From Pseudomonas sp. BN417 (GTDB lineage: Bacteria; Pseudomonadota; Gammaproteobacteria; Pseudomonadales; Pseudomonadaceae), in NCBI RefSeq assembly GCF_029871205.1, contig NZ_SSOJ01000041.1:1-64000 (forward strand): a DNA stretch of 64,000 nt, given 5' to 3'. The notes under the pieces were generated by a model. The model did no database searches, was not told the DNA's origin, and worked only from the letters and a program-made list of their open reading frames with translations. Shown piece by piece: positions 39,571 to 60,156 of this stretch (position 1 is its first letter; every line of letters begins with the position of its first letter). A program made the position numbers and the translations under genes.

Positions 39571-39639
39571 TGCACCGGGGCGGGCGCCATGCGCTCGTCC
39601 CTTCCTCTTCTCGCGGCTGCTGCATTCCGTTGATTTTTC

Positions 39640-39653
39640 GTTAAAATCTTCAC
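39640..39653 (+). promoter_or_regulatory. Imperfect operator upstream of hpaR
   Basis: GTTAA-AATC-TTCAC matches the GTTAA-N4-TTAAC palindrome found at four other hpa promoters, except for one base. It lies 24 bases before the hpaR ATG and overlaps a TAAAAT sequence that may be the -10. This fits autoregulation. Confidence 0.5.
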
Positions 39654-39677
39654 GATGTTCCCCGGACCCAAGCCGCC

Positions 39678-40100
39678 ATGCCCATTCCAAGACCCTCGCT
39701 GACCCTCACCCTCCTGCAAGCCCGCGAAGCGGCCATGAGCTTCTTCCGCCCCTTGCTGAACCAGCACGACCTGACCGAACAGCAGTGGCGGGTGATCCGC
39801 CTGCTGCGCCAGCACGGCGAGCTGGAGAGCTACCAGCTCGCCGACCTCGCCTGCATCCTCAAGCCGAGCATGACCGGCGTACTGGCACGCCTGGAGCGCG
39901 ACGGCATGGTCGTTCGCCGCAAGGCGCCGCAGGACCAGCGCCGCGTGCTGGTGAACCTGACCGAAAAGGGCCAGCAATGCTTCGTCTCCATGAGCGAAGG
40001 CATGGAGAGCAACTACCAGAAGATCCAGGAGCAGTTCGGCGAGGAGAAGCTCAAGCAGCTCTTCGAACTGCTCAACGAGCTGAAGCAGATCAAGCCCTGA
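39678..40100 (+). CDS. hpaR: MarR-family repressor HpaR of homoprotocatechuate degradation
   Basis: A 140-residue MarR regulator with the HpaR N-terminus RPSLTLTLLQAREAAMSFFRPLL, a winged helix (LTEQQWRVIRLLRQHGELESYQLADLACILKPSMTGVLARLERDGMVVRRK described by its ends at about 34-85) and the wing DQRRVLVNLTEKG. HpaR of E. coli represses the meta operon and is released by 4-HPA and pathway compounds. It is located beside the C1/C2 hydroxylase genes. It is the best candidate for the protein that binds the recurring GTTAA-N4-TTAAC palindrome, including the site in its own leader. Confidence 0.93.
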   Translation: MPIPRPSLTLTLLQAREAAMSFFRPLLNQHDLTEQQWRVIRLLRQHGELESYQLADLACILKPSMTGVLARLERDGMVVRRKAPQDQRRVLVNLTEKGQQCFVSMSEGMESNYQKIQEQFGEEKLKQLFELLNELKQIKP

Positions 40101-40109
40101 GAGGCTCCC

Positions 40110-40195
40110 GTAGGATGGGTGGAGCGGAGCGATACCCATCACTCGACCCTGATGGGTATCGCCGAGCTCGCGGAACGCCGCCCGACCCATCCTAC
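40110..40195. repeat. REP-like inverted pair, family C (GTAGGATGGGT)
   Basis: The outer arms are GTAGGATGGGT / ACCCATCCTAC-type, with inner perfect 12-bp arms CGATACCCATCA (40130-40141) / TGATGGGTATCG (40150-40161). It lies between hpaR and the C2 hydroxylase gene, 10 bases past the hpaR stop. Confidence 0.8.
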
Positions 40196-40381
40196 ATATT
40201 GGTTCTGCGCTCCATGAAAAGTGCAATCTAGACTCCGTAACGTCCATTCTTGGGGCTCGGCACCCCATCCCATAATCGCCCTGCACCCACTTGGGTTACC
40301 GCCTTCGGCAGCGGCCTGATCCGGCTATCAGGACCGCTTCGACCCGACGGCGCCACCTCTAACAATAAGCAGGGCTCCGAC

Positions 40382-41551
40382 ATGAAAAAGCCAAACCCTC
40401 TTCTCGATGACCTGCAGGCCATCCTGCCTGCCATCGCCGCCAATGCCGCGAAGGCCGAGCAGCTGCGCCAGGTCCCGGATGAGAACATCGCCATGCTCAA
40501 GGGCATCGGCCTGCACCGTGCGCTGCAGCCGAAGAAGTACGGCGGCATGGAGATCTCGCTGCCGGAGTTCGCCGACTGCGTCGTCGCCCTGGCCGGCGCC
40601 TGCGCCAGCACGGCCTGGGCCTTCAGCCTGCTGTGCACCCACAGCCACCAGTTGGCGATGTTCTCCGCGCAGTTGCAGGAAGAGGTCTGGGGCGAGAACT
40701 CCGACGCCACCGCCAGCAGCTCCATCGCACCGTTCGGCAAGGTGGAGGAGGTGGAAGGCGGCGTGCGCTTCAATGGCGAGATGGGCTGGAGCAGCGGCAG
40801 CGACCATGCCGAGTGGGCCATAGTCGGCTGCCGCCGGAAGAACGCCGAAGGCGAGCTCATCTACTGCTTCGCCGTACTGCCGCGCAGCGACTACGAGATC
40901 CGCGACGACTGGTTCGCCGCCGGCATGAAGGGCAGCGGCACCAAGACCCTGGTCATCAAGGATGCCTTCGTGCCGAACCACCGCATCCAGGCGGCCAAGG
41001 ACATGATGGAAGGCAAGTCCGCCGGCTTCGGCCTGTACCCGGACAGCAAGATCTTCTACTCCCCCTATCGGCCGTACTTCGCCAGCGGTTTCGCGGCCAT
41101 CAGCCTGGGCATCGCCGAGCGCATGCTCGAAGCCTTCAGGGAGAAGACCAGGAACCGCGTGCGCGCCTACACCGGCGTCAGCGTCGGCACCGCCACCCCG
41201 GCGCTGATGCGCCTGGCCGAGTCCACCCACCAGGTGGCCGCCGCCCGCGCCTTCCTGGAGAGGACCTGGCAGGACCACGCCGAGCACGGCGAACGCCACC
41301 AGTACCCGAGCCGCGAGACCCTGGCCTTCTGGCGCACCAACCAGGCCTATGCCGTGAAAATGTGCATCCAGGCGGTGGACCGCCTGTTCGAGGCCGCCGG
41401 CGGCACCGCCTGGTTCGAGAACAACGAGATGCAGCGACTGTTCCGCGACTCGCACATGACCGGCGCCCATGCCTACACCGACTACGACGTCTGCGCGCAG
41501 ATACTTGGGCGCGAGCTGATGGGGCTCGAGCCCGATCCCAGCATGGTGTGA
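40382..41551 (+). CDS. 4-hydroxyphenylacetate 3-hydroxylase oxygenase, C2 type (acyl-CoA dehydrogenase fold)
   Basis: A 389-residue flavin-dependent monooxygenase of the Acinetobacter C2-HPAH class, which uses reduced FMN delivered by a separate reductase to hydroxylate 4-HPA at C3. The acyl-CoA-dehydrogenase-like architecture shows an N-terminal helical domain, a central beta domain with NGEMGWSSGSDHAEWAIVG and GTKTLVIKDAFVP, and a C-terminal helical bundle with AGGTAWFENNEMQRLFRDSHMTGAHAY (His near the end is the usual active-site region). It is not homologous to HpaB at 58500-60071. The matching C1 reductase follows. A long intergenic leader separates it from hpaR. The ATG at 40382 is chosen because the earlier frame has no homology. 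Confidence 0.92.
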   Translation: MKKPNPLLDDLQAILPAIAANAAKAEQLRQVPDENIAMLKGIGLHRALQPKKYGGMEISLPEFADCVVALAGACASTAWAFSLLCTHSHQLAMFSAQLQEEVWGENSDATASSSIAPFGKVEEVEGGVRFNGEMGWSSGSDHAEWAIVGCRRKNAEGELIYCFAVLPRSDYEIRDDWFAAGMKGSGTKTLVIKDAFVPNHRIQAAKDMMEGKSAGFGLYPDSKIFYSPYRPYFASGFAAISLGIAERMLEAFREKTRNRVRAYTGVSVGTATPALMRLAESTHQVAAARAFLERTWQDHAEHGERHQYPSRETLAFWRTNQAYAVKMCIQAVDRLFEAAGGTAWFENNEMQRLFRDSHMTGAHAYTDYDVCAQILGRELMGLEPDPSMV

Positions 41552-41648
41552 TGCCTGCAACCCTCACCTGCGTGCCGGGCGGCGCTGATCCGCCCGCCGA
41601 CGAACAATCGCGCGGCCATCCCATGAGGCGGCCGCCAGGAGCTGCGTC

Positions 41649-42587
41649 ATGTCCTCCCAAGAAAGCGTTTTCGATTCCCGTGCCTTCCGCCGCGCCCTGG
41701 GCAACTTCGCCACCGGGGTCACCATAGTCACCGCCACCGCGCCCGACGGCACCCGCGCCGGTGTCACCGCCAACAGCTTCAACTCGGTCTCCCTGGAACC
41801 GCCGCTGGTCCTCTGGAGCATCGACAAGCGCTCCAGCAGCCTGGCTGTGTTCCAGCAGGCCAGCCATTTCGCTGTGAACATCCTGGCCGCCGACCAGATC
41901 GACCTGTCCAACCAGTTCGCCCGTCCGCGCGACGACAAGTTCGAGGGCGTGGCTTTCGACAGCGGCATCGGCGGCGCGCCGCTATTCCCCGACTGCGCGG
42001 CGCGCTTCCAGTGCGAGCTGCACCAGCAGGTGGATGGCGGCGACCACGTCATCCTCATCGGCAAGGTGCTGGCTTTCGACGATCTCGGCCGCTCGCCGCT
42101 GCTTTACCACCAGGGCGCCTATTCCATGGTCCTGCCGCATACCCGCATGACGCAGAAGAGTGAAGGCCAACCGGCTTCCAGCGCCTTCCAGGGGCGTCTG
42201 TCGCACAACCTCTACTACCTGATGACCCAGGCGGTGCGCGGCTACCAGGCCGATTACCAGCCGAAGCAGCTCTCCACCGGCCTGCGCACCAGCGAGGCGC
42301 GCATGCTGATGGTGCTGGAGAACGACGCCGGCCTCGACCTCTGCGACCTGCAACGGGAAGTGGCGATGCCCCGGCGCGAGATTGAGGAGGCGGTGGCCAT
42401 CCTCAAGCGCAAGGGAATGGTGGCCGATGCCGGTGAGCGTTACCTGCTGACCCCGGCTGGCGTGGAGCAGGCCGAGGCGCTCTGGCGCATCGCTCGCGAG
42501 CAACAGGACAAGGTGTTCGCACAGTTCAGCGAGGAGCAGGTGGAGACTTTCAAGACGATGCTCAAGGCGGTGATTGCGCTGGGGTGA
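41649..42587 (+). CDS. 4-hydroxyphenylacetate 3-hydroxylase reductase, C1 type, with MarR-like C-terminal domain
   Basis: A 312-residue NADH:FMN reductase partner of the C2 oxygenase. Residues about 8-165 are the flavin reductase domain (FRRALGNFATGVTIVTA, GVTANSFNSVSLEPPLVLWSI, FAVNILA, LYHQGAYSMV). Residues about 185-312 form a MarR-like winged helix (YYLMTQAVRGYQADYQP, EARMLMVLENDAGLDLCDLQREVAMPRREIEEAVAILKRKGMV). In the Acinetobacter enzyme this extra domain is autoinhibitory and 4-HPA binding to it stimulates FMN reduction. AGGAG precedes the ATG. A strong terminator follows the stop. Confidence 0.92.
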   Translation: MSSQESVFDSRAFRRALGNFATGVTIVTATAPDGTRAGVTANSFNSVSLEPPLVLWSIDKRSSSLAVFQQASHFAVNILAADQIDLSNQFARPRDDKFEGVAFDSGIGGAPLFPDCAARFQCELHQQVDGGDHVILIGKVLAFDDLGRSPLLYHQGAYSMVLPHTRMTQKSEGQPASSAFQGRLSHNLYYLMTQAVRGYQADYQPKQLSTGLRTSEARMLMVLENDAGLDLCDLQREVAMPRREIEEAVAILKRKGMVADAGERYLLTPAGVEQAEALWRIAREQQDKVFAQFSEEQVETFKTMLKAVIALG

Positions 42588-42604
42588 TCGGTGTTGCCGC
42601 AATG

Positions 42605-42636
42605 AATGGCGCCCCCTGTGGGCGCCATTTTCGTTT
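42605..42636 (+). terminator. Terminator of the hpaR/C2/C1 transcription unit
   Basis: The 10-bp stem AATGGCGCCC (42605-42614) / GGGCGCCATT (42620-42629) with loop CCTGT is followed by TTCGTTT, 17 bases past the C1 stop. Confidence 0.8.
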
Positions 42637-42658
42637 CGGGGAAGGGGTGGGGATAACT

Positions 42659-42955
42659 TGTGGGAGCGAATTTATTCGCGATCTGTGTTCAGTCAAGGCA
42701 CCGAGCGGACGGATACAACCCTCACCCCCGGCCCCTCTCCCGGAGGGAGAGGGGGGACTCGCGGCGGCGGCGAAGTGCCAAATCCCACCTGCTGCACGGC
42801 CAGCCCCCTCACCCTTTGGGAGAGGGTTGGGGTGAGGGGGCTTCGCGATCGCTCGATGCCAAGAAAGTCCCGTAGGTTGGGCTGAGCTATGCGAAGCCCA
42901 ACAGGCGGAGTCGATGCCGGAATCGTTGGGCTTCGCTGCGCTCTGCCCAACCTAC
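42659..42955. repeat. Mosaic of REP-like elements between the two hpa operons
   Basis: The 455-base gap at 42588-43042 holds no gene. It contains a degenerate family A REP (42659-42679, TTTATT instead of TTCATT), an inverted CCCTCACCC / GGGTGAGGG pair at about 42719-42840 and a family C pair GTAGGTTGGGC / GCCCAACCTAC (42872-42955). Terminators lie at both edges (42605 and 42996). Confidence 0.75.
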
Positions 42956-42995
42956 AAGAGCCCCTCTCCCGGTCGCTCGATGCCGGCGGGACGGC

Positions 42996-43024
42996 ACAAA
43001 AAAGCCGGCTACCCGAGCCGGCTT
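42996..43024 (-). terminator. Rho-independent terminator of the hpaG1-I operon
   Basis: On the - strand AAGCCGGCT (43024-43016), loop CGGGT, AGCCGGCTT (43010-43002) is followed by TTTTGTG. It starts 19 bases beyond the hpaI stop. Confidence 0.85.
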
Positions 43025-43042
43025 CCTTCACTCGCGGGGTAA

Positions 43043-43846
43043 TCAATACACCCCACCACCTCCACTCACCGGCGCCTGCGTCTCCTTGAACGCCCCCGCC
43101 AGGCTCTGCAGTCCGCGCATCAGCACCGTGGTATCCACCCCCACTGCGACGAAGGCGGCGCCCAGTTCGATGTAGCGGCGTGCCAGGGCCTGGTCGGCGG
43201 AGAGGATGCCGGCGGCCTTGCCCGCATGGCGGATGCGCAGGATGGCATCCTCAATGGCCGCCTGGACCTCGGGATGGCCGGGGTTACCGCGATGGCCCAT
43301 GGCGGCGGACAGGTCGGCGGGGCCGATGAACACGCCGTCCACGCCGTCGACGGCAGCGATCACATCCAGGTTGGCCAGGCCGTCGAGGTTCTCGATCTGC
43401 ACCAGCAGGCACATCTGCTCGTCGGCGTTGTCCAGGTAGCCGGGGATGCTGTTCCAGCGCGAGGCGCGGGCCAGGGCGCTGCCGACGCCACGGATGCCGA
43501 AGGGCGGGTAGCGCATGGCGCGCACCAGTTCGGCGGCCTGTTCGGCGGATTCCACCATGGGCACCAGCAGAGTCTGGGCGCCGATATCCAGCAACTGCTT
43601 GATCAGCACCGCGTCGCCGATCGGCGGGCGAATGATCGGCTGGGCGGGGTAGGGCGCGATGGCCTGGAGCTGGGCGAGCAGGCTGCGCAGGTCGTTGGGC
43701 GCGTGCTCGCCGTCCAGCAGCAGCCAGTCGAAGCCGGCGTTGGCCGCCAGCTCGGCACAGTAGGCGTCGGCTAGGCCGAGCCAGAGGCCGATCTGCGGCT
43801 GGCCGGAATGCAGGCGGGCCTTGAAGGTATTGATAGGCATGTCCAC
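43043..43846 (-). CDS. hpaI: 4-hydroxy-2-oxoheptanedioate aldolase
   Basis: A 267-residue class II, divalent-metal aldolase of the HpcH/HpaI family that splits 4-hydroxy-2-oxoheptanedioate to pyruvate and succinic semialdehyde, the last step of the pathway. The motifs [31 protein letters not shown] (His of DGEH acts as base), then [12 protein letters not shown] with the metal-binding Glu, [13 protein letters not shown], and [13 protein letters not shown] with the metal-binding Asp are all present. It is the last gene of the seven-gene operon, separated from hpaH by a 103-base spacer containing a REPIN. No succinic semialdehyde dehydrogenase gene is visible in the window. Confidence 0.95.
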
Positions 43847-43871
43847 AGGAGGACTCCTTGAGGGCTCCGGA

Positions 43872-43923
43872 TGTAGGAGCCAGCTCGCTGGCGAAGAGCT
43901 TCGCGAGCAAGCTCGCTCCTACA
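43872..43923. repeat. REPIN, family B, in hpaH-hpaI spacer
   Basis: Arms GTAGGAGC (43873-43880) / GCTCCTAC (43915-43922) enclose inner GCTCG/CGAGC pairs. It is the same family as the copy inside the FUSC gene. Its hairpin interrupts the operon mRNA between hpaH and hpaI and could reduce read-through or stabilise the upstream message. Confidence 0.85.
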
Positions 43924-43949
43924 AGGGCTGGGTGAAGTTCGAATGCGGC

Positions 43950-44753
43950 TCAGACGAAGCGGCAGGCGATGGAGCCGAGCTGGTCGTAGTCGACGTGGAA
44001 GGTGTCGCCGGGGGCGGCCGCCACCGGACGGGTGAAGGAGCCGCCGAGGATGATCTGCCCGGCTTCCAGGGTGACGTCGTAGGGCGCCAGCTTGTTGGCC
44101 AGCCAGGCCACGCCTTTGGCCGGGTGGTTGAGCACCGCGGCGGAGACGCCGGATTCCTCGATCACGCCATTGCGGTAGAGGATCGCCGGCACCCGGCGCA
44201 GGTCGATCTCGGTGGGGCGCACGGCGCGGCCGCCCATCACCACACCGGCGTTGGCGGCGTTGTCGGAGATGGTGTCGAAGACCTTGCGGGTCACCTTGGT
44301 GTCCGGGTCCACTTGCTGGATGCGCGCGTCGATGATCTCCAGGGCCGGGATCACCCAGTCGGTGGCGTCCAGCACGTCGAAGACCGTGCAGTTTGGCCCG
44401 CGCAGGGGCTTGCCGAGGATAAAGGCCAGTTCCACTTCCACGCGCGGGACGATGAAGCGCTCGAAGGGGATGTCGCTGCCTTCGTCGAACAGCATGTCGT
44501 CCAGCAGCGCGCCGTAGTCCGGCTCCGTGATGTTGGATGACACCTGCATGGCGCGGGAGGTGAGGCCGATCTTGTGGCCCACCAGCCTGCGGCCGCCCTT
44601 GATCTTCTGCTGCACCCAGGCGCGCTGGATGGCGTAGGCGTCATCGATGCTGATGGACGGGTAGTCCAGGGAGAACTGGCGCACCTGTTCGCGGGAACGC
44701 TCGGCGGCGTCGAGGCGGGCGGCGGCTTGCTGGATGATGCTGGCGTCGAGCAT
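43950..44753 (-). CDS. hpaH: 2-oxo-hept-4-ene-1,7-dioate hydratase
   Basis: A 267-residue member of the fumarylacetoacetate-hydrolase-related hydratase family (HpaH/MhpD type). It hydrates 2-oxohept-4-ene-1,7-dioate to 4-hydroxy-2-oxoheptanedioate. The motifs [28 protein letters not shown] (metal-binding Glu pair) and GVVMGGRAV, and the C-terminal [27 protein letters not shown], are typical. It is full length compared with E. coli HpaH (267). The ATG at 44753 lies 7 bases after the hpaF stop. The longer frame to 45008 is an antisense/out-of-frame artefact. Confidence 0.95.
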
Positions 44754-44760
44754 GGAAACC

Positions 44761-45171
44761 TCAGGAACTCTTGGTGAACAGGGGGTGCAGGCTGCTGTGC
44801 TTGGCATCAAAGACCTGGCCGGGGCTTTCGTCGATCTGCAGGGTGATGCCGATCGGGCGTTGCTCCAGCAGGCCGTCGAGGTGGTGGCGCAGCACTGCCA
44901 GCAGGCTGTCGCCCACCTGCTTGTGCACCACCGGGCTGCGCCCGGCGCCCATGCGCAGGTTGGCGTAGAGGAAGCCGTAGTCGCCCTGGCCGTCGGCCAC
45001 GGCGACATGGGCGGCCGGGTAGGCCAGCACGCGGGTGCCGCCGGTGGGGAACACCTGGCGGCCGGTTTCGTCGCGCTGCTCGAGCATGCAGTCGGCGAGG
45101 GCGCGGCAGAGGCCGCCGATATCCGCCTCGCGTTCCAGGTCAGGTGTGTAGAGCAGGACCAGATGAGGCAT
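44761..45171 (-). CDS. hpaF: 5-carboxymethyl-2-hydroxymuconate delta-isomerase
   Basis: A 136-residue trimeric isomerase of the tautomerase superfamily converting 5-carboxymethyl-2-hydroxymuconate to 5-oxopent-3-ene-1,2,5-tricarboxylate. Pro2 (MPHLVL) is the catalytic base. [27 protein letters not shown] is the family core. The ATG at 45171 is required to expose Pro2. It lies 11 bases downstream of hpaD and 7 bases upstream of hpaH. Confidence 0.92.
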
Positions 45172-45182
45172 GGCGGCGCTCC

Positions 45183-46106
45183 TTAGAGGCGGCTGGTGGA
45201 GCCGACGCCGGCCGGGCTGGAGGCCTGGGCGGCGGGGATGGCGGAGCCGTCCTGCGGGGTGACCGGGAATACCGCGTTGATCTGGCCGGTGCCGGAGGAG
45301 CCGAAGTAGGGGGTGATCACTTCCGCCTTGCCGTCGTACTTCGACCAGCCCAGGGCGCCCAGCAGCATCGCGGTGTCGTGCATGAAGCCTTCGCCGTGAC
45401 CCTTGACCGCGTACTCCGGGAGCATGGTGCAGAAGTCGTCCCACTCGCCGTCTTCCCACATCTGCACGACGCGGTGGTCGAGGATTTCCAGGAAGGGGCT
45501 CCAGACCTTGGTCGCGAATTCCGGTGCCTGGCCGTTCTGGGCGAAACGGTGAGACAGGGATCCGCTGGCGAGGAAGGCGACGTTGCCGTCGTAGTGTTCT
45601 TCCACCGCCTTGCGCATGGCCCAGCCGAGGCGGGCGCTGTCGTTGAGGTAGTGGGACGTGCACAGCGCCGAGACCGAGATCACCTTGAAGTGCTGGTCGG
45701 CGTTCATGTAGCGCATCGGTACCAGGGTGCCGTACTCCGGTGCCAGGGTCGTGGCGTCGTGGGCCATGGTCTCCACGCCGAAGCGGTTGCATTCCTCGGC
45801 CAGCAGGCGACCCAGTTCGGGGTTGCCGGGGAACTCGTACTCCATGTTGCTGATGAAGTGCGGCAGCTCGTTGCTGGTGTACAGGCCCTGGAAGTGCGGG
45901 CCGCAGTTGACGTGGTAGTTGGCGTTGACCAGCCAGTGGGTGTCGAACACGACGATGGTGTCGACGTTCAGCTCGCGGCAGCGGCGGCCGATCTCGATGT
46001 GCCCGTCGATGGCCGGCTTGCGGAAGCCCTGGCGCGGGCCGGGCAGCTCGGACAGGTACATGGACGGGACGTGGGTGATCTTGGCAGCCAGAGCAAGTGT
46101 GCCCAT
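45183..46106 (-). CDS. hpaD: 3,4-dihydroxyphenylacetate 2,3-dioxygenase
   Basis: A 307-residue extradiol ring-cleavage dioxygenase of the class III LigB superfamily. It opens homoprotocatechuate to 5-carboxymethyl-2-hydroxymuconate semialdehyde with non-heme Fe(II). Likely metal ligands are His12 (ITHVPSMY) and the His of VFDTHWLVN, with the Glu of MEYEFPGNPELGR near the active site. A second His-rich segment SGSLSHRFAQ closes the pocket. The C-terminal SSGTGQINAVFPV is family-typical. It shows the usual length of the Pseudomonas HpaD/HpcB group. Confidence 0.95.
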   Translation of the reverse strand: MGTLALAAKITHVPSMYLSELPGPRQGFRKPAIDGHIEIGRRCRELNVDTIVVFDTHWLVNANYHVNCGPHFQGLYTSNELPHFISNMEYEFPGNPELGRLLAEECNRFGVETMAHDATTLAPEYGTLVPMRYMNADQHFKVISVSALCTSHYLNDSARLGWAMRKAVEEHYDGNVAFLASGSLSHRFAQNGQAPEFATKVWSPFLEILDHRVVQMWEDGEWDDFCTMLPEYAVKGHGEGFMHDTAMLLGALGWSKYDGKAEVITPYFGSSGTGQINAVFPVTPQDGSAIPAAQASSPAGVGSTSRL

Positions 46107-46183
46107 GACGGTTCTCCTAGCGGCGGGCGCCCTCTCTCAAGGGGCGTCCTGGTTGTTGTGGTGTTTGCACGCCAGCGAAAGTG

Positions 46184-46215
46184 GCCGCTCGCGCAGGGCT
46201 TGCCTGCGGAGCGGC
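46184..46215 (-). other. Intercistronic hairpin between hpaE and hpaD
   Basis: GCCGCT + CGCAGG (46184-46197) pair with CCTGCG + AGCGGC (46203-46215), with one bulge position. The 125-base gap is the longest in the operon except for hpaH-hpaI. There is no T-tract, so an mRNA-processing or stabilising element is more likely than a terminator. Confidence 0.45.
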
Positions 46216-46231
46216 TCTATGCGGACGAGCC

Positions 46232-47697
<1,466 letters not shown>

Positions 47698-47701
<4 letters not shown>

Positions 47702-48483: not shown

Positions 48484-48493
48484 CTCGGGCTCC

Positions 48494-49153: not shown

Positions 49154-49221
49154 GGGTCGTCTCCTGTGGATAAAAAAGGCGGGTGGGTCGTGACGGAACG
49201 CCACCCGTAAACGAGGATTTC

Positions 49222-49255
49222 GTTAATGTGTTAACGTTATATTTAACATGTTAAT
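49222..49255. promoter_or_regulatory. Two operators at the hpaG1 promoter
   Basis: GTTAATGTGTTAAC (49222-49235) and TTTAACATGTTAAT (49242-49255) share the GTTAA-N4-TTAAC pattern with centres exactly 20 bp apart. One lies between the -35 and -10 of the hpaG1 promoter, the other just downstream of the -10. Confidence 0.7.
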
Positions 49256-49264
49256 GATCGTCAA
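49236..49264 (-). promoter_or_regulatory. Sigma-70 promoter of the hpaG1 operon
   Basis: On the - strand TTGACG (49264-49259), a 17-bp spacer and TATAAC (49241-49236) fit the consensus well. The predicted leader to the ATG at 49153 is about 75 bases. It overlaps both operators, consistent with repression. Confidence 0.75.
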
Positions 49265-49323
49265 GTCTTGCGTCGTCGCCTTTCGTCATCGAAGGTGTGC
49301 GAAGGCAGCGGAGAAAGGTCGCC

Positions 49324-50241: not shown

Positions 50242-50270
50242 GCGTCATTGGCAGGACGGTGTCCTGCTTG

Positions 50271-50338
50271 GCGAATGAATTCGCCCCCACAGTAGAAGCG
50301 CAGACCTGCACACTTCTGTGGGTTCGAATTCATTCGAA
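50271..50338. repeat. Two REP units, families A and A-prime
   Basis: A family A unit at 50271-50291 and a variant TGTGGGTTCGAATTCATTCGAA at 50317-50338, between hpaA and the porin. The variant is directly joined to the terminator stem of the porin gene. Confidence 0.82.
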
Positions 50339-50356
50339 AAAGGCCGCGAAGCGGCC
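50338..50356 (-). terminator. Terminator of the porin gene, fused to a REP unit
   Basis: On the - strand GGCCGC-TTC-GCGGCC (50356-50342) is followed by TTTTTCGAATG. The T-tract is the first part of the A-prime REP unit. Confidence 0.8.
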
Positions 50357-50373
50357 CCTAAGAGTGTCCCCGG

Positions 50374-51621
50374 TTACCACAGCGCCAGGGTATAGCCGAG
50401 GATGATCCGGTTCTCGTCGATATCCTGGGTCAGCCCATCGCCGGAGCGGAAGGTGACGTTGCGCAGGCGGACATTGAAGCCGCGCAAGGGGCCGCTCTGC
50501 ACCACGTAGGCGAGGTCGCTGTCGCGCTCCCATTCGCGGCCATCGCGCACCGCGCCCTGTTTCACCCCATCGCCGCTGACGTAGCGGGTCATGAAACTCA
50601 GCCCCGGAATCCCCAGGCTGGCGAAGTCGTAGTCATAGCGCAGCTGCCAGGAGTCTTCCTCGGCCTTGGTGAAGGTGTTGTAGGTCACCAGGTTGACCAC
50701 GAAGGGATCGCCCCCGGTAAGGAAGGGGAAGGCGCTGTCACCGGACAGCCGCTGCCAGGCCGCCGAGAAGCGCTGGGCGCCGGCGGTCAGGCTGAGCATG
50801 CCGTTGAAGTTGCGGTTGTCGACGCGTCCGGCCTTGGCCGCGCCGCTGTCGCTACTGTCGAAGTAGCGCAGGTCGCTCTTCAGGCTCAGGCCTTCGCCCA
50901 GGGGCAAGGTGTGTACGAGGCCGGCGAAGTGCTGGCGGTAGATGTCCTGCAGCTCCGAGCTGTAGGCGGTCAGCGCGAGGTTGGGCGTCAGTGCATAGGT
51001 GCCGCCGGCGAAGTCGAAGTGGTCGCTGGTCTGCCCGGCGAAGCCGATGTCGTCGCGGCTGGAGGAGTCGCGCAAGTTGGTTTCGGTGAGGCGGCCGGCA
51101 TTCAGGGTCAGGCCGTCGATCTCCTGGCTGGTGAGCATGCCGCCGCTGAAGGTCGAGGGCAGCAGACGGGTGTCGTTGTACATGGCCACTGGCAGGGTGG
51201 GCAGCAGGGTGCCAACCCGCAGGGTGCTTTTCGACGCGCGCAGCTTGGCGGTCAGTCCCAGTTCGCTGTAGTCGTCCACCGGCTCTTTCGAGGTGGGGCC
51301 GAAGGGCAGCAGGCCGGTGCCGCGTCGGTCGCGGCTGGAATCCAGTTTCACGCCCAGCTCGCCCAGGGCGTCCAGGCCGACGCCGATGCTGCCTTCGGTG
51401 AAGCCGGACTCGAAGCGGGCGATGAAGCCCTGGCTCCACTCGGCGGCCTTCGATTGCGGTGCCCCTTCCTGGCGGAAGTCGCGGTTGATGTAGACGTTAC
51501 GCAGCTCGAGGCTGGCCTTGCTGTCCGCGACCAGATCGGCCTCGGCGTTGCCGCTGCAGGCCAGGGCCAGCAGGGCGAATGATGGAAGTGCGAGCGAGTG
51601 CTGCCCTAGGGTCCTGATCAT
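50374..51621 (-). CDS. OprD-family outer-membrane porin, 4-HPA-associated
   Basis: A 415-residue porin. The signal peptide ends near SGNAEA, followed by a beta-barrel typical of the OprD family (LVADSKASLELRNVYINRDFR at the mature N-terminus, VDDYSELGLTAKLRASKSTLRVGTLLPTLPVAM, RLLPSTFSGGMLTSQEIDGL, ending RIILGYTLALW with a C-terminal Trp). The family takes up small carboxylates, and the location in the hpa island and the upstream operator suggest uptake of 4-HPA or related aromatics. The ATG at 51621 has GGAGAAAAG upstream. Confidence 0.92.
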   Translation of the reverse strand: MIRTLGQHSLALPSFALLALACSGNAEADLVADSKASLELRNVYINRDFRQEGAPQSKAAEWSQGFIARFESGFTEGSIGVGLDALGELGVKLDSSRDRRGTGLLPFGPTSKEPVDDYSELGLTAKLRASKSTLRVGTLLPTLPVAMYNDTRLLPSTFSGGMLTSQEIDGLTLNAGRLTETNLRDSSSRDDIGFAGQTSDHFDFAGGTYALTPNLALTAYSSELQDIYRQHFAGLVHTLPLGEGLSLKSDLRYFDSSDSGAAKAGRVDNRNFNGMLSLTAGAQRFSAAWQRLSGDSAFPFLTGGDPFVVNLVTYNTFTKAEEDSWQLRYDYDFASLGIPGLSFMTRYVSGDGVKQGAVRDGREWERDSDLAYVVQSGPLRGFNVRLRNVTFRSGDGLTQDIDENRIILGYTLALW

Positions 51622-51702
51622 TGTTCTTTTCTCCAGGAGGCCGAATTGGGTGAGGCTCGACCGGTCTTGCCGATCCTGAGCGGGGCAGATTACTAGCACT
51701 TG

Positions 51703-51716
51703 ATTAATATCTTAAC
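51703..51716 (-). promoter_or_regulatory. Operator upstream of the porin gene
   Basis: ATTAA-TATC-TTAAC, 82 bases before the porin ATG, falls within a weak -35/-10 pair on the - strand (TTGTTA-N17-TAGTAA). It shares the motif of the hpaG1, TRAP and MFS promoters. The 381-base gap 51622-52002 otherwise holds only AT-rich promoter sequence. Confidence 0.6.
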
Positions 51717-51869
51717 AATGTGTTTTTTGTGTATGCCTGCCAGAGCGCCGAGCGCATGGCATGGCTGTTTTTGCGCGATAAAGTTTTTAAATAATTGTTT
51801 TTAAAGAATTTATTTTTATTTGTTGGGTTCTCGCAATAGCCGTTAGGCGGCAAGTGGAATTGTCTCTGG

Positions 51870-51929
51870 TTGACATGCTTGTTTTAAAAGTTAATGTGTT
51901 AACGAGATCTTGAGGCTGTTAACGAGATC
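51870..51929 (+). promoter_or_regulatory. Promoter and operators of the TRAP transporter operon
   Basis: A perfect -35 TTGACA (51870-51875) has a degenerate -10 near 51892-51898. The palindrome GTTAATGTGTTAAC (51890-51903) covers the -10. The 12-mer GTTAACGAGATC occurs at 51898-51909 and again at 51918-51929, 20 bp apart. The arrangement indicates repression by the factor that binds GTTAA-N4-TTAAC, and perhaps activation through the direct repeat. Confidence 0.65.
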
Positions 51930-52002
51930 CTGGACCGCCGATGCTCCCGCGCGGGGTTGGCTGTCACACCCGCAAATACAAGAACAACGAGGCTCACCCC
52001 CC

Positions 52003-53025
52003 ATGAAGATGTCCAAGCTCGCCGTCCTCTTCGCTGCCGCCTGCACCTCAGGCGCGGCCCTCGCGGAAACCACCTACACCCTGAAGGTCGCGCATTTCCT
52101 GCCTGCCAACTCCAACGCCCAGCGCAACATCATCGAGCCCTGGTGCCAGCGGCTCAGTGACGAGTCCGCCGGCCGCCTGAAATGCCAGCTCTATCCCTCG
52201 ATGCAACTGGGTGGAACCCCGGCCAAGCTGGCCGACATGGCGCGCAACGGCGTCGCCGATATCGTCTGGACCGCGCCGGCCTACTCGGCGGGCAAGTTCC
52301 CGCGCATCGAGGCCATGGAGCTGCCCTTCATGCTGCCGGCGGGGGCGAAGGCCAGTAACCCGATCATCTGGCAGTACTACGAGCAGTACGCCAAGGACGA
52401 CTTCAAGGGCTACAAGGTGCTGTCGATCCACGGCGATGGCGGCATGGACATCCATACCCGCGGCAAGGCCGTGGCCAGCCTCGACGACCTGAAGAACCTC
52501 AAGCTGCGCGCCTCCAGCCGCACCGCGGCGAAGCTGGTGGAAGCCCTGGGCGCCACTCCGGTGAGCATGCCCCCGGCGCAGATGACCGAGTCCATCTCCA
52601 AGGGGGTGGTGGATGGTGCGCTGGCCTCCTGGGAAGTGGTGCCGCCGACCAAACTGGATGAAGTCACCGATCACCATTCGAGCATCCCCGCCGGCGAACC
52701 GGCCTTCTCCTACACCGTGCTCGCCATGCTGATGAACGCTCGCAAGTTCGATAGCCTGCCGGATGACCTGCGCGCCATCATCGAGCGCAACAGCGGCCCG
52801 GTCCTGAATGAGCGCTTCGCCACCGCCTGGGACAAGGCCCTGGACGCAGCCCGCACGGGCACCCCGGTCGAGCAGATGGTGGCGATCGATGCACCGGCCT
52901 ACGCCGGCATGCGCCAGGCCGCCGCGCCGGTGGCCGATGCCTGGGCGGCTGACGCGAGCGACAAGGGACTGGATGGCAAGGCCTTGCTGGAAGGCGCCCG
53001 CAACCTCTCCGCACAGGCCCGGTGA
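52003..53025 (+). CDS. dctP: TRAP transporter solute-binding protein, DctP type
   Basis: A 340-residue periplasmic binding protein with signal peptide ending ALA-E (about residue 20) and the DctP fold starting at TYTLKVAHFLPANSNAQRNII. The conserved Arg-containing KLRASSRTAAKLVEALGATPVSMP segment fixes the carboxylate group of the ligand. It is followed 6 bases later by the small membrane subunit. A C4-dicarboxylate name is conventional for the family, but the context suggests an aromatic acid such as 4-HPA as the ligand. The ATG at 52003 is chosen for its signal peptide. Confidence 0.93.
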   Translation: MKMSKLAVLFAAACTSGAALAETTYTLKVAHFLPANSNAQRNIIEPWCQRLSDESAGRLKCQLYPSMQLGGTPAKLADMARNGVADIVWTAPAYSAGKFPRIEAMELPFMLPAGAKASNPIIWQYYEQYAKDDFKGYKVLSIHGDGGMDIHTRGKAVASLDDLKNLKLRASSRTAAKLVEALGATPVSMPPAQMTESISKGVVDGALASWEVVPPTKLDEVTDHHSSIPAGEPAFSYTVLAMLMNARKFDSLPDDLRAIIERNSGPVLNERFATAWDKALDAARTGTPVEQMVAIDAPAYAGMRQAAAPVADAWAADASDKGLDGKALLEGARNLSAQAR

Positions 53026-53031
53026 TCCACG

Positions 53032-53562
53032 ATGAACGAGTCCCTTTCCTTCGACGCCGCGCCCGAGGTAGGGCGCGGCACGGCGGGTCGCCTGCTGTAC
53101 CGCGTCACCCAGGGCTTCGCCCTCGGTGGTGGGCTGATCCTGCTGGTGCTGGTGGGCATGTCCCTGATCTCGGTGATCGGCCGCAAGCTGTTCGCCACGC
53201 CGGTGCACGGCGATATCGAGCTGATGGAAATCGGCGCCGCCATGGCCATCGCCGCCTTCCTGCCGCTCTGTGAGCTGCGTGGCCAGCACATCAAGGTGGA
53301 TGCCTTCACCCTGAAACTGCCGGTGCGGGCCCAGGCCTGGCTGGACGCCTGCGCCCATTTCCTCTGCCTGGTGGCCGCGCTGGTGCTGGCTTGGCGCACC
53401 AGCCTGCAGGTGCTGGAGAGCCGTGAGTACGGCGAGGTCTCGACGCTGCTCTCGGTGCCCCTGTGGATACCCTTGCTGCTGATCGTGCCGAGCTTGCTGT
53501 TGCTGGCCGTGACTGCCGGTGCCCGAACCTTCCATTGCCTTGCGCGGGAGCAACGCCCATGA
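53032..53562 (+). CDS. dctQ: TRAP transporter small membrane subunit, DctQ type
   Basis: A 176-residue four-helix protein (LGGGLILLVLVGMSLISVIGRKLF, then DIELMEIGAAMAIAAFLPLCELRGQHIKVD, AHFLCLVAALVLAWRT and LLLIVPSLLLLAVTAGA) that links the binding protein to the large subunit. GQHIKVD is a conserved DctQ motif. The TGA overlaps the dctM start (ATGA). Confidence 0.92.
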   Translation: MNESLSFDAAPEVGRGTAGRLLYRVTQGFALGGGLILLVLVGMSLISVIGRKLFATPVHGDIELMEIGAAMAIAAFLPLCELRGQHIKVDAFTLKLPVRAQAWLDACAHFLCLVAALVLAWRTSLQVLESREYGEVSTLLSVPLWIPLLLIVPSLLLLAVTAGARTFHCLAREQRP

Positions 53563-54881
53563 GCGGACTCAGTCTCGGCCTGCTGGCGCTGGCCGCCACC
53601 TTTACCCTGCTGGTGCTGCGCGTGCACATCGGCCTGACCATGATGGTGGGCGGCGCCCTGTGCTTCCTGGCGGTGAACCAGGGCGACCTGTCGGCGCTGC
53701 TCTTCAGCCTGAACAACCTGGCCTGGTCGCGCCTGTCCAACTACGACCTGGCGGTGATCCCGCTGTTCGTGCTGATGGGCCAGTTCGCCACCCACGGCGG
53801 CCTGTCCAAGGCCATCTTCCGCTGCGCGGCGGCGTTCGTGGGGCACCTGCGCGGAGGCCTGGGCATGTCGGCCATCGGCGCCTGCGCTGGCTTCGGTGCC
53901 ATCTGCGGCTCGTCGCTGGCCACCTCGGCGACCATGAGCCAGGTGGCGCTGCCGGAGCTGCGCCGGCACAACTACTCCGGCCGCCTGGCCACCGCCACCG
54001 TCGCGGCGGGCGGCACCCTGGGCATCCTCATCCCGCCCTCGGTGCCGTTGATCATCTATGCGGTGCTGACCCAGGAATCCATCGCCAAGCTGTTCGTCGC
54101 CGCCGTGGTGCCGGGCCTGCTGGCGGCGCTGGGCTACATCCTGGTCGTGCGCCTGATGGTGTCCCGCGAGCCCGAAGGCCATCACCGCAGCGAACCGGCC
54201 AGCGCGACCGAGCGGATCAAGGCGCTGCTGCAGGTGCTGCCGGTGCTCGGGGTGTTCCTGGTGGTGATCGTCGGCATCTACGGCGGCTGGACCAACCCCA
54301 CCGAGGCCGCTTCCATCGGCGCGGCCGCCTGCGGTCTGCTGGCGCTCATCCAGGGCGGCCTGCGCTGGGAGGGCCTGCAGCGCTGCCTGCTGGGCACCGC
54401 CGAAACCAGCGGGATGATCTTTCTCGTGCTGCTTGGTGCCGACCTGCTCAACGCGGGCCTCGCCCTGACCCAGATGCCCACCGAGCTGGCCGAGTGGGTC
54501 AAACAGAGTGGCCTCGCGCCAATCCTGGTGCTCAGCGCCATCCTCCTGCTCTACCTGTTGCTGGGCTGCGTGATGGACTCGCTGGCGATGATCCTGCTGA
54601 CCATCCCGATCTTCTACCCGGTGATCATGGGGCTGGAATTCTTCGGCATGAGCGAAGTGGATAAGTCCATCTGGTTCGGCATCCTCGCCTTGATGGTGGT
54701 GGAGATCGGCCTGATCCACCCGCCCCTGGGGATGAACCTGTTCATCGTCAACAAGGTGGCTCGCGACGTGCCCTACCTGGAAACCGCCAAGGGCGTGCTG
54801 CCGTTCCTCGCCTCCGACCTGCTGCGCATTGTCCTGCTGGTGGCCTTCCCCGGTATCTGCCTGTGGCTGCTCAGCCTGTGA
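53559..54881 (+). CDS. dctM: TRAP transporter large permease, DctM type
   Basis: A 440-residue permease with about 12 helices. Family motifs are PLFVLMGQFATHGGLSKAIFRCAAAFVGHLRGGLGMSAIGACAGFGAICGSSLATSATM (about 67-125, described by its ends), GGTLGILIPPSVPLIIYAV and CVMDSLAMILLTIPIFYPVI. It uses the Na+ gradient, for which the Mrp antiporter elsewhere in the window is a natural support. It is coupled to dctQ by a 4-base overlap, and a weak hairpin follows before the Bcr/CflA gene. Confidence 0.94.
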   Translation: MSGLSLGLLALAATFTLLVLRVHIGLTMMVGGALCFLAVNQGDLSALLFSLNNLAWSRLSNYDLAVIPLFVLMGQFATHGGLSKAIFRCAAAFVGHLRGGLGMSAIGACAGFGAICGSSLATSATMSQVALPELRRHNYSGRLATATVAAGGTLGILIPPSVPLIIYAVLTQESIAKLFVAAVVPGLLAALGYILVVRLMVSREPEGHHRSEPASATERIKALLQVLPVLGVFLVVIVGIYGGWTNPTEAASIGAAACGLLALIQGGLRWEGLQRCLLGTAETSGMIFLVLLGADLLNAGLALTQMPTELAEWVKQSGLAPILVLSAILLLYLLLGCVMDSLAMILLTIPIFYPVIMGLEFFGMSEVDKSIWFGILALMVVEIGLIHPPLGMNLFIVNKVARDVPYLETAKGVLPFLASDLLRIVLLVAFPGICLWLLSL

Positions 54882-54887
54882 CCCGAT

Positions 54888-54908
54888 GCGGGCCGTGCGG
54901 CGGCCCGC
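54888..54908 (+). terminator. Hairpin between dctM and the Bcr/CflA-type gene
   Basis: GCGGGCC (54888-54894) / GGCCCGC (54902-54908) with a 7-nt loop, followed by only CTTCTC. It may attenuate, rather than stop, transcription into the MFS gene 29 bases on. Confidence 0.45.
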
Positions 54909-54936
54909 CTTCTCACCGCCGTCGCGGAGACTCCCG

Positions 54937-56133
54937 ATGAACCAGCCCCTCCCGGCCGGCCGTGGATTGATCGTCCTGCTGGCCGCGTTAGTGGCCTTCG
55001 CGCCCCTGTCCATCGACATGTACCTGCCGAGCCTGCCCACCCTGGCGCGCGACCTCGCCGCCAGTGAGGCGCAAGTGCAGCACAGCATCAGTGTGTTCCT
55101 GGTGGGGCTGTGCCTCGGCATGCTCTTCTACGGGCCACTGTCGGACCGCTTCGGCCGGCGCCCGCTGCTGCTCGGCGGAATCGCCCTCTATGTCGCCGCC
55201 AGCCTCGGCTGCTCCCTGGCCACCAGCGCCGACCAGCTCCTGCTCTGGCGCGGCCTGCAGGCCCTCGGCGGCGCGGCGGCCTCGGTGCTGGCGCGGGCCA
55301 TGGTGCGCGACCTGTTCCCCCTGCAGCAGTCGGCGCGGGTGCTGTCGCTGATGCACCTGGTGACCATGCTCGCCACCCTGGTGGCGCCGCTGCTGGGCAG
55401 CTGGCTGATGCAGCTGGCCGGTTGGCGCGCGATTTTCGTGGGCCTGCTGGGTTTCGCCACCCTGTGTGGCCTGGCGGTCTGGCTGCGGGTGCCGGAAACC
55501 CACCGGGGCGAAGCGCGCGGGCATTCCCTGGGCAGCGCCTTCGCCGCCTACCTTGCGATCCTCCGCAACCCGCGTGCGGTGGGGTTGATGCTGTGCATGG
55601 AGCTGTCCTTCGCCGGCATGTTCGCCTACATCACCGGCTCGCCCTTCGTCTTCATCGAGCACTTCGGCTTCAGCCCGAACCAGTACGCGCTGCTGTTCAG
55701 TTCCAATATCGCCGGGGTGATAGTCGCCACCTCCCTCAATGCCCGCCTGGTGGGGCGCCTGGGGCCGGAGACCCTGCTGCGCCGGGGTTCGGCCGTTTCT
55801 GCCCTGGCCGGGCTGTGGCTGCTTGTCGCCGCCAGCCAGCCGGCCCCAGGTTGGATGGGGATCGCCGTCGGCCTGCTGCTGTACGTCAGCGTCACCGGCA
55901 TGCTCGGCGCCAACGCCATCGCCAGCCTGATGGCGCTGTTCCCTCAGCGTGCCGGCGCCGCTGCGGCGCTGGCGGTGGCCGGACAGTTCGGCCTCGGCGC
56001 CCTGGCCAGCGCCCTGGTGGGGGCCATGCATGACGGCTCGCCACTGCCCATGTGCCTGATCGTCGCGCTCTGCGGTGCGGGCTCCTTCGCCGCCCTTCGC
56101 CTGGCTCTGTGCGCCGAGCCTGCGGTGGCCTGA
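54937..56133 (+). CDS. Bcr/CflA-family MFS multidrug transporter
   Basis: A 398-residue MFS protein of the 12-helix DHA1 group. The motif APLSIDMYLPSLPTLARDL in helix 1 and LFYGPLSDRFGRRPLLLGG between helices 2 and 3 are diagnostic of Bcr/CflA. Position downstream of the TRAP genes suggests export of a toxic aromatic or of a pathway intermediate, but this is inference. The ATG at 54937 follows GGAG. Confidence 0.9.
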   Translation: MNQPLPAGRGLIVLLAALVAFAPLSIDMYLPSLPTLARDLAASEAQVQHSISVFLVGLCLGMLFYGPLSDRFGRRPLLLGGIALYVAASLGCSLATSADQLLLWRGLQALGGAAASVLARAMVRDLFPLQQSARVLSLMHLVTMLATLVAPLLGSWLMQLAGWRAIFVGLLGFATLCGLAVWLRVPETHRGEARGHSLGSAFAAYLAILRNPRAVGLMLCMELSFAGMFAYITGSPFVFIEHFGFSPNQYALLFSSNIAGVIVATSLNARLVGRLGPETLLRRGSAVSALAGLWLLVAASQPAPGWMGIAVGLLLYVSVTGMLGANAIASLMALFPQRAGAAAALAVAGQFGLGALASALVGAMHDGSPLPMCLIVALCGAGSFAALRLALCAEPAVA

Positions 56134-56154
56134 GTTCGGCGTTGAGCCTTGGCT

Positions 56155-56314
56155 CCCAGCGGTGGAAATCGTTTCGCGATTTCCACCGCTGGGCGACTCC
56201 TTGCTGTCCACCATGGTGGTTTGCGGCGGGGAGCCACGCTTTAGCATGTTGGTAGGGTGCGCTGTGCGCACCAGGACCTCGGCACGGGATTCCGGTGCGC
56301 GCAGCGCACCCTAC
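56155..56314. repeat. Hairpin and family C repeat between convergent MFS genes
   Basis: The perfect 17-bp stem CCCAGCGGTGGAAATCG (56155-56171) / CGATTTCCACCGCTGGG (56177-56193) with loop TTTCG is followed by the inverted pair GTAGGGTGCGC (56252-56262) / GCGCACCCTAC (56304-56314). There is no coding sequence. Confidence 0.8.
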
Positions 56315-56380
56315 GAGTGGCTTCTCGCGTCGGGTGGACAGCGCTTTTCTGTCCACCATTGGAATCATCAGCCCAGTTGC

Positions 56381-57628
56381 TCAGCCATCCTCCTTCGGTG
56401 CCGCCGCGATCTCCCGGCCCAGCCAGCGCTGGCGCGGCAGTAGCCAGGCGCAATAGCCGAGCAGCAGCGCGCCGGCGCTGGCCATGGCCCAGGGCGCGCC
56501 GACCTGTTCGGCGAGCACGCCCACCAGCAGGCCGCCGATGGCGTCGAAGCCGAAGCGCGTCGAGGTATAGAGCGCCACCACCCGGCCACGCAGGTGTTCC
56601 GGCGCCAGGCTCTGCAGGAGGATGTTGGTGCCCACGTTGCAATTGGTGATGGCGAAACCGAGCACCGCCATAGCCAGCAGCGAGAGGGCGAGCTGTTCGC
56701 TGGCGGCGAAGGCCAGCAACCCGGCGCCACCGGCCAGGGCGCAGGCCATGATGCTGGTCACCAGCCCCGGCAGGGCATGGCGATTGGCGAGGAACGCGGT
56801 GCCCAGCAGCGAGCCCAGGCCGGCGGCGCCCCAGAGCCAGCCGAGGGTGCGCGCGTCGCCGGCGAAGATGTCCTTGGCGAACACCGGCAGCAGCACTGCA
56901 TAGCTGGAGGCGGTGAGGTTGACCACCAGCACGCTGGTCATCATCAGGCGGATCGGTGGGCGGCCGGCGATGTAGCGCAGGCCTTCGCGGAACACATCGC
57001 CGGTGGAGCCCTGGGCGCGTGGCGTGGGGGCCATGCGGATCACCAGCAGCCCGGCGGCCAGGCCCAGGTAGGAGAGGGCGTTGAGGGCGAAGCAGGTCGC
57101 CTCGCTGGTGAAGCCCAGCAGCAGGCCGGCCAGCGGCGGGCCGATGAAGCGCGAACTGTTGAACAGCATGGCGTTCAGCGCCAGGGCGTTGGGCAGGTCC
57201 TCCTTTCCGCTGACGAACTGGCTGAGCAGGGACTGGCGCAGGGGCGTGTCGAAGGCGTTGAGCACGCCGAGCAGGGTGGCCATGGCGACGATCAGTGTCG
57301 GGCCGATCAGCCCGCTCGCCGTCAGCCCCGCCAGGGCCACGGCCTGCAGGCCGAGCAGGCCCTGCACGCCGATCAGCAGGCGGCGCTTGTCATGCCGGTC
57401 GATCCACGCGCCGGCTAGCGGGCCCACCAGCAGTTGTGGCAGCAACGAGGCGAAGGTGGTGATGCCGAGCAGCGCCGCCGAGCCGGTGAGGCGGTAGACC
57501 AGCCAGGCCAGCGCCACCTGCTGCAGCCAACTGCCCAGGGTGGAGACGGCCTGGCCGGCGAAGTACAGGCGGAAGTTGCGGTGGCGCAGGGCGCGGATGG
57601 CGGCGGGCCAGGGACGGGGTTCGGACAT
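56381..57628 (-). CDS. MFS transporter (EntS/MFS_3-like)
   Basis: A 415-residue 12-helix MFS protein with N-terminal FRLYFAGQAVSTLGSWLQQVALAWLVYRLTGS and the loop GPLAGAWIDRHDKRRLL between helices 2 and 3, as in the EntS/MFS_3 group of exporters. The substrate is unknown. Its promoter region carries the shared GTTAATATCTTAAC operator 33 bases before the ATG, so it is probably part of the hpa regulon, perhaps exporting catechol-like intermediates. It is convergent with the Bcr/CflA gene. Confidence 0.9.
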   Translation of the reverse strand: MSEPRPWPAAIRALRHRNFRLYFAGQAVSTLGSWLQQVALAWLVYRLTGSAALLGITTFASLLPQLLVGPLAGAWIDRHDKRRLLIGVQGLLGLQAVALAGLTASGLIGPTLIVAMATLLGVLNAFDTPLRQSLLSQFVSGKEDLPNALALNAMLFNSSRFIGPPLAGLLLGFTSEATCFALNALSYLGLAAGLLVIRMAPTPRAQGSTGDVFREGLRYIAGRPPIRLMMTSVLVVNLTASSYAVLLPVFAKDIFAGDARTLGWLWGAAGLGSLLGTAFLANRHALPGLVTSIMACALAGGAGLLAFAASEQLALSLLAMAVLGFAITNCNVGTNILLQSLAPEHLRGRVVALYTSTRFGFDAIGGLLVGVLAEQVGAPWAMASAGALLLGYCAWLLPRQRWLGREIAAAPKEDG

Positions 57629-57660
57629 CGGGGCGACTACGGGCTGGGCGGGAGGAGAAG

Positions 57661-57674
57661 GTTAATATCTTAAC
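57661..57674 (-). promoter_or_regulatory. Operator upstream of the MFS gene
   Basis: GTTAATATCTTAAC is an exact GTTAA-N4-TTAAC palindrome 33-46 bases before the ATG at 57628. Its position is consistent with overlap of a -10/+1 region on the - strand. Confidence 0.65.
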
Positions 57675-57688
57675 GTCACGTGCCTTCC

Positions 57689-57951: not shown

Positions 57952-57970
57952 GAGTGTGCCCCCACAGGCC

Positions 57971-58483: not shown

Positions 58484-58499
58484 GGCGAGGTCCTCCGGG

Positions 58500-60071: not shown

Positions 60072-60156
60072 GCGTTATCTCCGCTACTTGTAGTTATGGA
60101 ATGCCGGATCGGCTGCGGAGAATCATGGCGTCCAGGCCTTCCGGGCTGAATGAAGC

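Follow-up and report, generated by a model that had tools for sequence, protein, structure and literature searches.

A palindrome at promoters of the 4-hydroxyphenylacetate island of Pseudomonas sp. BN417, probable operator of the repressor HpaR

The window analysed here, a 64-kb stretch of contig NZ_SSOJ01000041.1 from Pseudomonas sp. BN417, carries an island for the catabolism of 4-hydroxyphenylacetate (4-HPA), and the palindrome GTTAA-N4-TTAAC recurs at the promoters of this island. Very probably its copies serve as operators for HpaR, a MarR-type repressor encoded in the same island (39678-40100), which would hold the island promoters shut until 4-HPA or a pathway intermediate is present. 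What can be read directly are the sites, their near-uniqueness in the genome, their geometry relative to predicted promoters, their conservation, and their co-location with hpaR. Judged from the sequence, a common regulon with HpaR as its binder is the best reading and a supported one; that HpaR binds this form of sequence and is relieved by 4-HPA-type ligands is taken from its relatives. Both the operator and the kind of regulator are known, here in a new setting, and the wider regulon is predicted.

Copies of the palindrome in the window and in the genome

A recognisable copy was found at all six coordinates named in an earlier, sequence-only reading of this DNA, which had described only the copy before hpaR as mismatched. 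That copy (GTTAAAATCTTCAC) does carry one mismatch, but the copy before the porin gene (ATTAATATCTTAAC) also has one and the copy at 49242 (TTTAACATGTTAAT) has two, so that only three are exact, those at 49222, 51890, and 57661 (Table 1). The core TTAA-N4-TTAA, as footprinted in relatives, is kept in five of the six sites, the one at 39640 having one arm changed. With up to two mismatches allowed, the window contains eight matches (the six named sites plus 16193 and 60066) where 2.04 are expected, and one of 100 shuffles reached eight.

The whole genome (6.56 Mb, 166 contigs) was scanned with IUPAC patterns, the reversed pattern serving as control. The exact palindrome occurs at three places and the form RTTAAN4TTAAY at four, all of them in the island; the control gave none in either case. 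Many further copies outside promoters, which the earlier reading had named as telling against it, were not found for either form. This near-uniqueness is strong evidence that the palindrome is real and specific.

The predicted hpaG1 promoter and its probable operator pair

The predicted promoter of hpaG1, the first gene of the meta-cleavage operon, reads TTGACG-N17-TATAAC. One operator (O1) fills the spacer, and the other (O2) starts right after the -10 hexamer; the two overlap the predicted core promoter of the operon, and their starts are 20 bp apart, or about two helical turns. This spacing recurs in relatives: upstream of hpaG1 in 58 regions from the named HpaR loci described below, the operators are 20 bp apart in 38, 21 bp in 19, and 103 in one, counting matches with up to two mismatches and choosing the neighbouring pair nearest to 20. 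The promoter call rests on conservation. In 52 of the 58 hpaG1 regions, the upstream 260 bp contain a promoter of the type TTGA[CT]-N16-18-TA[TC]A.

Sites before the hpaR, TRAP, MFS, and porin genes

Upstream of hpaR, the block [GA]TTAAA[AC]T[CA]TTCA[CT] stands out in all 11 aligned rows, one or two mismatches away from the palindrome, while its flanks diverge; in each row the right arm is TTCA instead of TTAA. Through this candidate site hpaR may regulate itself.

The exact operator before the genes for a tripartite ATP-independent periplasmic (TRAP) transporter has no or one mismatch in nine of nine aligned rows. The degenerate second operator behind it is recognisable by a TGTTAAC arm, again in 9/9 rows. 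Also found in this leader is a direct repeat, TTAACGAGATC, at 51899-51909 and 51919-51929, that is, 20 bp apart; the pair is identical in four of nine aligned rows and near-identical in some others, and may represent either the second arm of the operator or a separate element.

Before the EntS-like gene of the major facilitator superfamily (MFS), the palindrome is exact in nine of nine rows, with most other upstream positions differing. In several relatives (L098, L104, L107, L126, L130) this MFS gene is divergent from the C2 hydroxylase gene with a site lying in between, an independent link of the MFS gene to the pathway. The porin site, with one or two mismatches, is present in five of six aligned rows. 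By alignment, then, the sites before the TRAP and MFS genes are conserved, and that of the porin gene less firmly so.

It might be argued that only the hpaG1 and hpaR sites function and that AT-rich sequence produced the porin, TRAP, and MFS copies by chance, seeing that promoter regions are richer in A+T than the window at large (66% G+C) and that one of the six rows lacks the porin site. We consider this quite improbable, given that all four RTTAAN4TTAAY sites of the genome fall in the island and that the MFS and TRAP sites are kept in every row. The link of the porin, TRAP, and MFS genes to a 4-HPA regulon, already suggested by the sequence-only reading, gains from the conservation of these sites in relatives, the porin being its weakest member.

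Association with hpaR in relatives

Among 18 genomes of the genus, 15 have a match to hpaR and 12 the exact palindrome; together they hold 27 exact copies against 13 for the reversed control, and hpa loci account for 24 of the 27. The sole copy in genome G002 is at hpaG1, distant from the hpaR of that genome. No exact copy was found in the three of these 18 genomes without an hpaR match (G003, G007, G016). The three copies outside hpa loci (G004:C15, G009:102096, G014:1173158) were treated as chance. Of 119 family genomes, 29 have hpaR, and 23 of these have at least one exact copy; AT-rich genomes without hpaR also have many, so that presence alone says little.

The positions of the sites were followed in 77 named HpaR loci, which were chosen for close HpaR relatives, come nearly all from Pseudomonas, and are partly de-duplicated; among the named loci listed, the closest belong to Pseudomonas sp. 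JM0905a and Pseudomonas resinovorans DSM 21078 (95% identity). They contain 156 distinct RTTAAN4TTAAY sites (two duplicates dropped). No fewer than 152 are situated within 300 bp upstream of the start of a mapped hpa-type gene, compared with 14% of random positions, and none lies inside a mapped gene, where mapped means related to a gene of the window or to a fea gene. These 152 sites precede hpaG1 (90), hpaR (41), hpaA (10), MFS_Bcr (4), porin (4), and TRAP (3) genes. When seven further loci are added, the resulting 84 hold 159 RTTAAN4TTAAY sites against two for the reversed control.

Two HpaR-like genes are present in six relatives (L095 and L096, L097, L103, L106, L129, L130). The paired genes are 8-10 kb apart in five relatives and on separate contigs in G004.

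HpaR and other possible binders

The HpaR of the window matches PDB entries 2fbi, 7el2 (named HpaR; E 1e-48), and 5aip (listed as MarR family), the last of which we take to be NadR. Entry 2fbi is identified as PA4135 in PMC4841544. The island HpaR scores above its profile cut-off, the site is built like the operators footprinted for HpaR, and the two are found together across the genus; on these grounds HpaR, which the sequence-only reading had put forward, appears a sound choice of binder.

The AraC-type activator HpaA might bind the palindrome in place of HpaR, for its gene adjoins the hpaG1 operators and shares their divergent promoter region. As a general rule, however, symmetric 14-mers inside a core promoter suit a repressor dimer better than an activator of this type. 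In genome G001, where hpaR is present and HpaA has no match, a site with one mismatch is still found before hpaR. Three of the 119 family genomes have HpaA but no HpaR match, and RTTAAN4TTAAY is absent from the five of their regions examined; this comparison covers three genomes of one AT-rich genus, in which one-mismatch copies are present, and applies an E-value limit of 1e-40 to HpaR matches. Footprints of the same form have been published for HpaR itself (PMC7180172). Binding by HpaA instead of HpaR is in our judgement highly improbable.

A different MarR- or TetR-type regulator, encoded elsewhere in the genome, could also be imagined, since the binder is assigned by sequence and some relatives have a second HpaR-like gene (two matches each in G004, G008, G009, and G017). 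We find this very improbable indeed: the BN417 genome has a single HpaR match, located in the island, and no RTTAAN4TTAAY outside it.

Several points weigh against HpaR as the common binder. Binding and ligand response in BN417, and likewise cooperativity and co-transcription, are what we infer. When one mismatch is allowed, the genome contains 11 places, five of them in the island, and the reversed control gives 35, so that there is no enrichment; the hpaR site and 49242 are therefore not callable from the scan and rest on conservation and position. As a source of further targets, the relaxed scan was rejected on the same counts. Of the six one-mismatch places outside the island, three are within a long open frame (L004, L007, L010), one within a shorter frame of uncertain reality (L009), and two between long frames (L008, L011); no 4-HPA gene was seen in their surroundings, as judged by eye. 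To these points is added a sigma-70 consensus scan of 39400-58000, which yielded one match against 1.7 expected and missed the hpaG1 promoter because TATAAC lacks the final T that the scan demanded. The consensus promoter was not found in six of the 58 hpaG1 upstream regions.

The relatives supply the remaining points of this kind. Genomes G001, G008, and G017 have hpaR with near-matches and no exact copy. The 77 loci are not an independent sample, and show association and position, not independence. Twelve of them are without RTTAAN4TTAAY. Nine of the twelve have an HpaR-like gene with no hpaG-I mapped nearby and with upstream sites of at least two mismatches, from which it follows that not every HpaR-like gene has this operator. 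In L180, L218, and L222 hpa genes are present with only two-mismatch sites before hpaR, the hpaG1 promoter being at the locus edge or unmapped. The nine HpaR-like genes that have no good upstream site (L196, L198, L199, L201, L203, L205, L207, L210, L217) are possibly paralogues with another target.

Proposed mechanism of repression

Without inducer, HpaR dimers would occupy the palindromes. At hpaG1, one dimer would fill the space separating the -35 and -10 hexamers and another would lie over the start region, two helical turns off and on the same face of the DNA, and the two would shut polymerase out sterically and probably cooperatively. The TRAP promoter would carry a pair of the same sort, its second arm degenerate, and the porin, MFS, and hpaR promoters one site each. 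Once 4-HPA or an intermediate of the pathway released HpaR, expression would begin of the meta-cleavage operon, of the genes for the porin and for TRAP uptake together with the Bcr-type gene, of the EntS-like MFS gene, and of hpaR along with its downstream hydroxylase genes.

This proposal provides a precise predicted regulon map for 4-HPA catabolism in Pseudomonas that is cheap to test. By placing an OprD-type porin, a TRAP transporter, and two MFS proteins under a 4-HPA sensor, it hints at their substrates, and the near-fixed operator pair of 20 or 21 bp is a ready test case for cooperative repression by a MarR protein.

A related site upstream of feaR

Beyond the window, at contig positions 71536-71549 (L142:7536-7549), a palindrome resembling the HpaR sites, GATAACATGTTAAT, starts 64 bp before feaR; the FeaR encoded downstream of it scores 395 bits against a cut-off of 199. 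FeaR activates the oxidation of aromatic amines leading to acids of the 4-HPA kind. In relatives, an element whose core is TAACATGTTA or differs from it by one change is located upstream of feaR in 45 of 48 usable rows (50 rows less L204 and L214, which were artefacts at a locus edge; rows not de-duplicated), the rows without it being L281, L282, and L284.

Control of feaR by HpaR is plausible, going by the site, because the amine oxidation driven by FeaR yields such acids. The second position of one arm of the feaR site is usually not T, so that another protein may be the binder. A feaR match occurs in 26 of the 119 family genomes and all 26 also have an hpaR match; with feaR always accompanied by hpaR, co-occurrence cannot separate HpaR from another binder.

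Tentatively, and with a confidence a little short of even, we propose that HpaR acts in two tiers in Pseudomonas, governing the meta-cleavage operon, the outer- and inner-membrane transport genes, and, by way of the variant operator, feaR, while the conserved two-turn pair makes a sharp cooperative switch of hpaG1. If this is true, a single 4-HPA sensor would govern every stage between tyramine-type amines and central metabolism. From the feaR site, amine oxidation is predicted to be linked in its regulation to ring cleavage. A literature search met no description of an HpaR regulon in Pseudomonas or of a link to feaR, but its coverage was incomplete and an earlier description is possible.

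Genes of the island

The order of genes in the island is hpaR, C2/C1-type hydroxylase, hpaI-H-F-D-E-G2-G1, hpaA, OprD-family porin, TRAP and Bcr/CflA-type MFS, EntS-like MFS, and hpaCB (Table 1). The placement of hpaF at about 44760-45180 is approximate and derives from position and from matches in relatives. The small TRAP permease had no NCBIfam match and was named by its position.

Two distinct 4-HPA 3-hydroxylase systems are thus found in one island, of the C2/C1 type (40382-42587) and the HpaB/HpaC type (57971-60071). No hpaB or hpaC match was present in the genus regions examined, which are parts of genomes; among the loci, matches to one or the other occur in L125 and L133 and in L173, L174, L176, L177, L179, and L227. 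Upstream of hpaBC there is no good HpaR-type operator, the only match being one with two mismatches over the hpaB start (60066-60079). A second HpaA-type regulator is encoded upstream of hpaBC at 60202-61074 on the minus strand (368 bits, cut-off 274.65).

Table 1. Features of the 4-HPA island, by position in the window; operators and promoter elements are predicted.
Feature	Position	Strand	Basis or remark
Candidate HpaR-type operator before hpaR, GTTAAAATCTTCAC	39640-39653	+	Conserved block; 1 mismatch
hpaR, MarR-family repressor, likely binder	39678-40100	+	TIGR02337, 192.7 bits (cut-off 121.2); MarR; PDB matches
p-Hydroxyphenylacetate 3-hydroxylase oxygenase (C2 type), 3' of hpaR	40382-41551	+	NF045920, 756 bits
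p-Hydroxyphenylacetate 3-hydroxylase reductase (C1 type)	41649-42587	+	NF045919, 549 bits
Meta-cleavage operon hpaG1 G2 E D F H I	43043-49156	- (transcribed right to left)	Profile matches for all except hpaF
Operator O2, GTTAACACATTAAC on hpaG1 strand	49222-49235	-	Exact; directly downstream of -10
-10 hexamer of hpaG1, TATAAC	49236-49241	-	TATAA in most aligned rows
Operator O1, ATTAACATGTTAAA on hpaG1 strand	49242-49255	-	2 mismatches; within 17-bp spacer
-35 hexamer of hpaG1, TTGACG	49259-49264	-	
hpaA, AraC-type activator	49324-50241	+	TIGR02297, 444 bits; divergent from hpaG1 across operators
OprD-family porin	50374-51624	-	PF03573, 519 bits
Candidate operator before porin, GTTAAGATATTAAT on porin strand	51703-51716	-	1 mismatch; overlaps -35-like TTGTTA at 51713-51718
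-35-like TTGACA before TRAP operon	51870-51875	+	TTGACA in 9/9 rows
Operator before TRAP operon	51890-51903	+	Exact
Degenerate second TRAP operator, TTGAGGCTGTTAAC	51910-51923	+	One good arm; 3 mismatches; 20 bp after first
TRAP transporter (binding protein, small and large permease)	52003-54881	+	Profile matches, small permease by position
Bcr/CflA-type MFS transporter, last gene after TRAP genes	54931-56133	+	NF008314, 329.5 bits (cut-off 303)
EntS-like MFS transporter	56381-57628	-	Pfam MFS_3; below every NCBIfam cut-off
Operator before EntS-like MFS gene	57661-57674	-	Exact
Second hydroxylase hpaBC	57971-60071		HpaB/HpaC type

Comparison with known systems

In Yersinia pseudotuberculosis, two 15-bp HpaR sites of the form TTAA-N4-TTAA were footprinted at hpaG1, one of them centred at -8 and overlapping the -10 element, and repression was demonstrated by deletion (PMC7180172). 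The HpaR operators of E. coli W are stated there to be similar to the Yersinia form. In two other E. coli strains we found ATTAACATATTAAT, of the form TTAA-N4-TTAA, 30 bp before hpaG. In Acinetobacter baumannii, HpaR binds upstream of hpaA and of the meta-cleavage operon, and comes off in the presence of 4-HPA (PMC12718150). Burkholderia xenovorans hpaR is listed together with hpaGEDFHIR, with 4-hydroxyphenylacetate as effector (PMC4349456).

As in E. coli W, a MarR-type HpaR with an operator of the form TTAA-N4-TTAA would regulate the meta-cleavage operon and hpaR (E. coli W as described in PMC7180172); a pairwise alignment of the HpaR of the window with that of E. coli gives 64 identical residues. 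Unlike in E. coli, the operators of BN417 form a 20-bp pair within the predicted hpaG1 core promoter, and the gene divergent from hpaG1 is hpaA, whereas in E. coli the divergent neighbour is hpaR. Porin, TRAP, and MFS genes carry sites here, again in contrast to E. coli.

The Yersinia system is alike in having sites of this form at hpaG1, but its other site is at -189 and not part of a 20-bp pair (PMC7180172). Yersinia HpaR is an activator as well, acting on a type VI secretion cluster by way of another sequence, and the authors report finding no HpaA homologue there (PMC7180172), while BN417 does possess hpaA. The Acinetobacter baumannii HpaR (PDB 7el2, 7el3) is a close relative of the window HpaR.

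NadR of Neisseria meningitidis is an HpaR-like MarR repressor with several operators on one promoter, to which 4-HPA weakens binding (PMC2791445, PMC4841544). Its main sites are 22 bp long, one operator being distal and one overlapping the promoter, and it controls an adhesin gene (PMC2791445, PMC4841544), whereas the HpaR of BN417 sits in a catabolic island.

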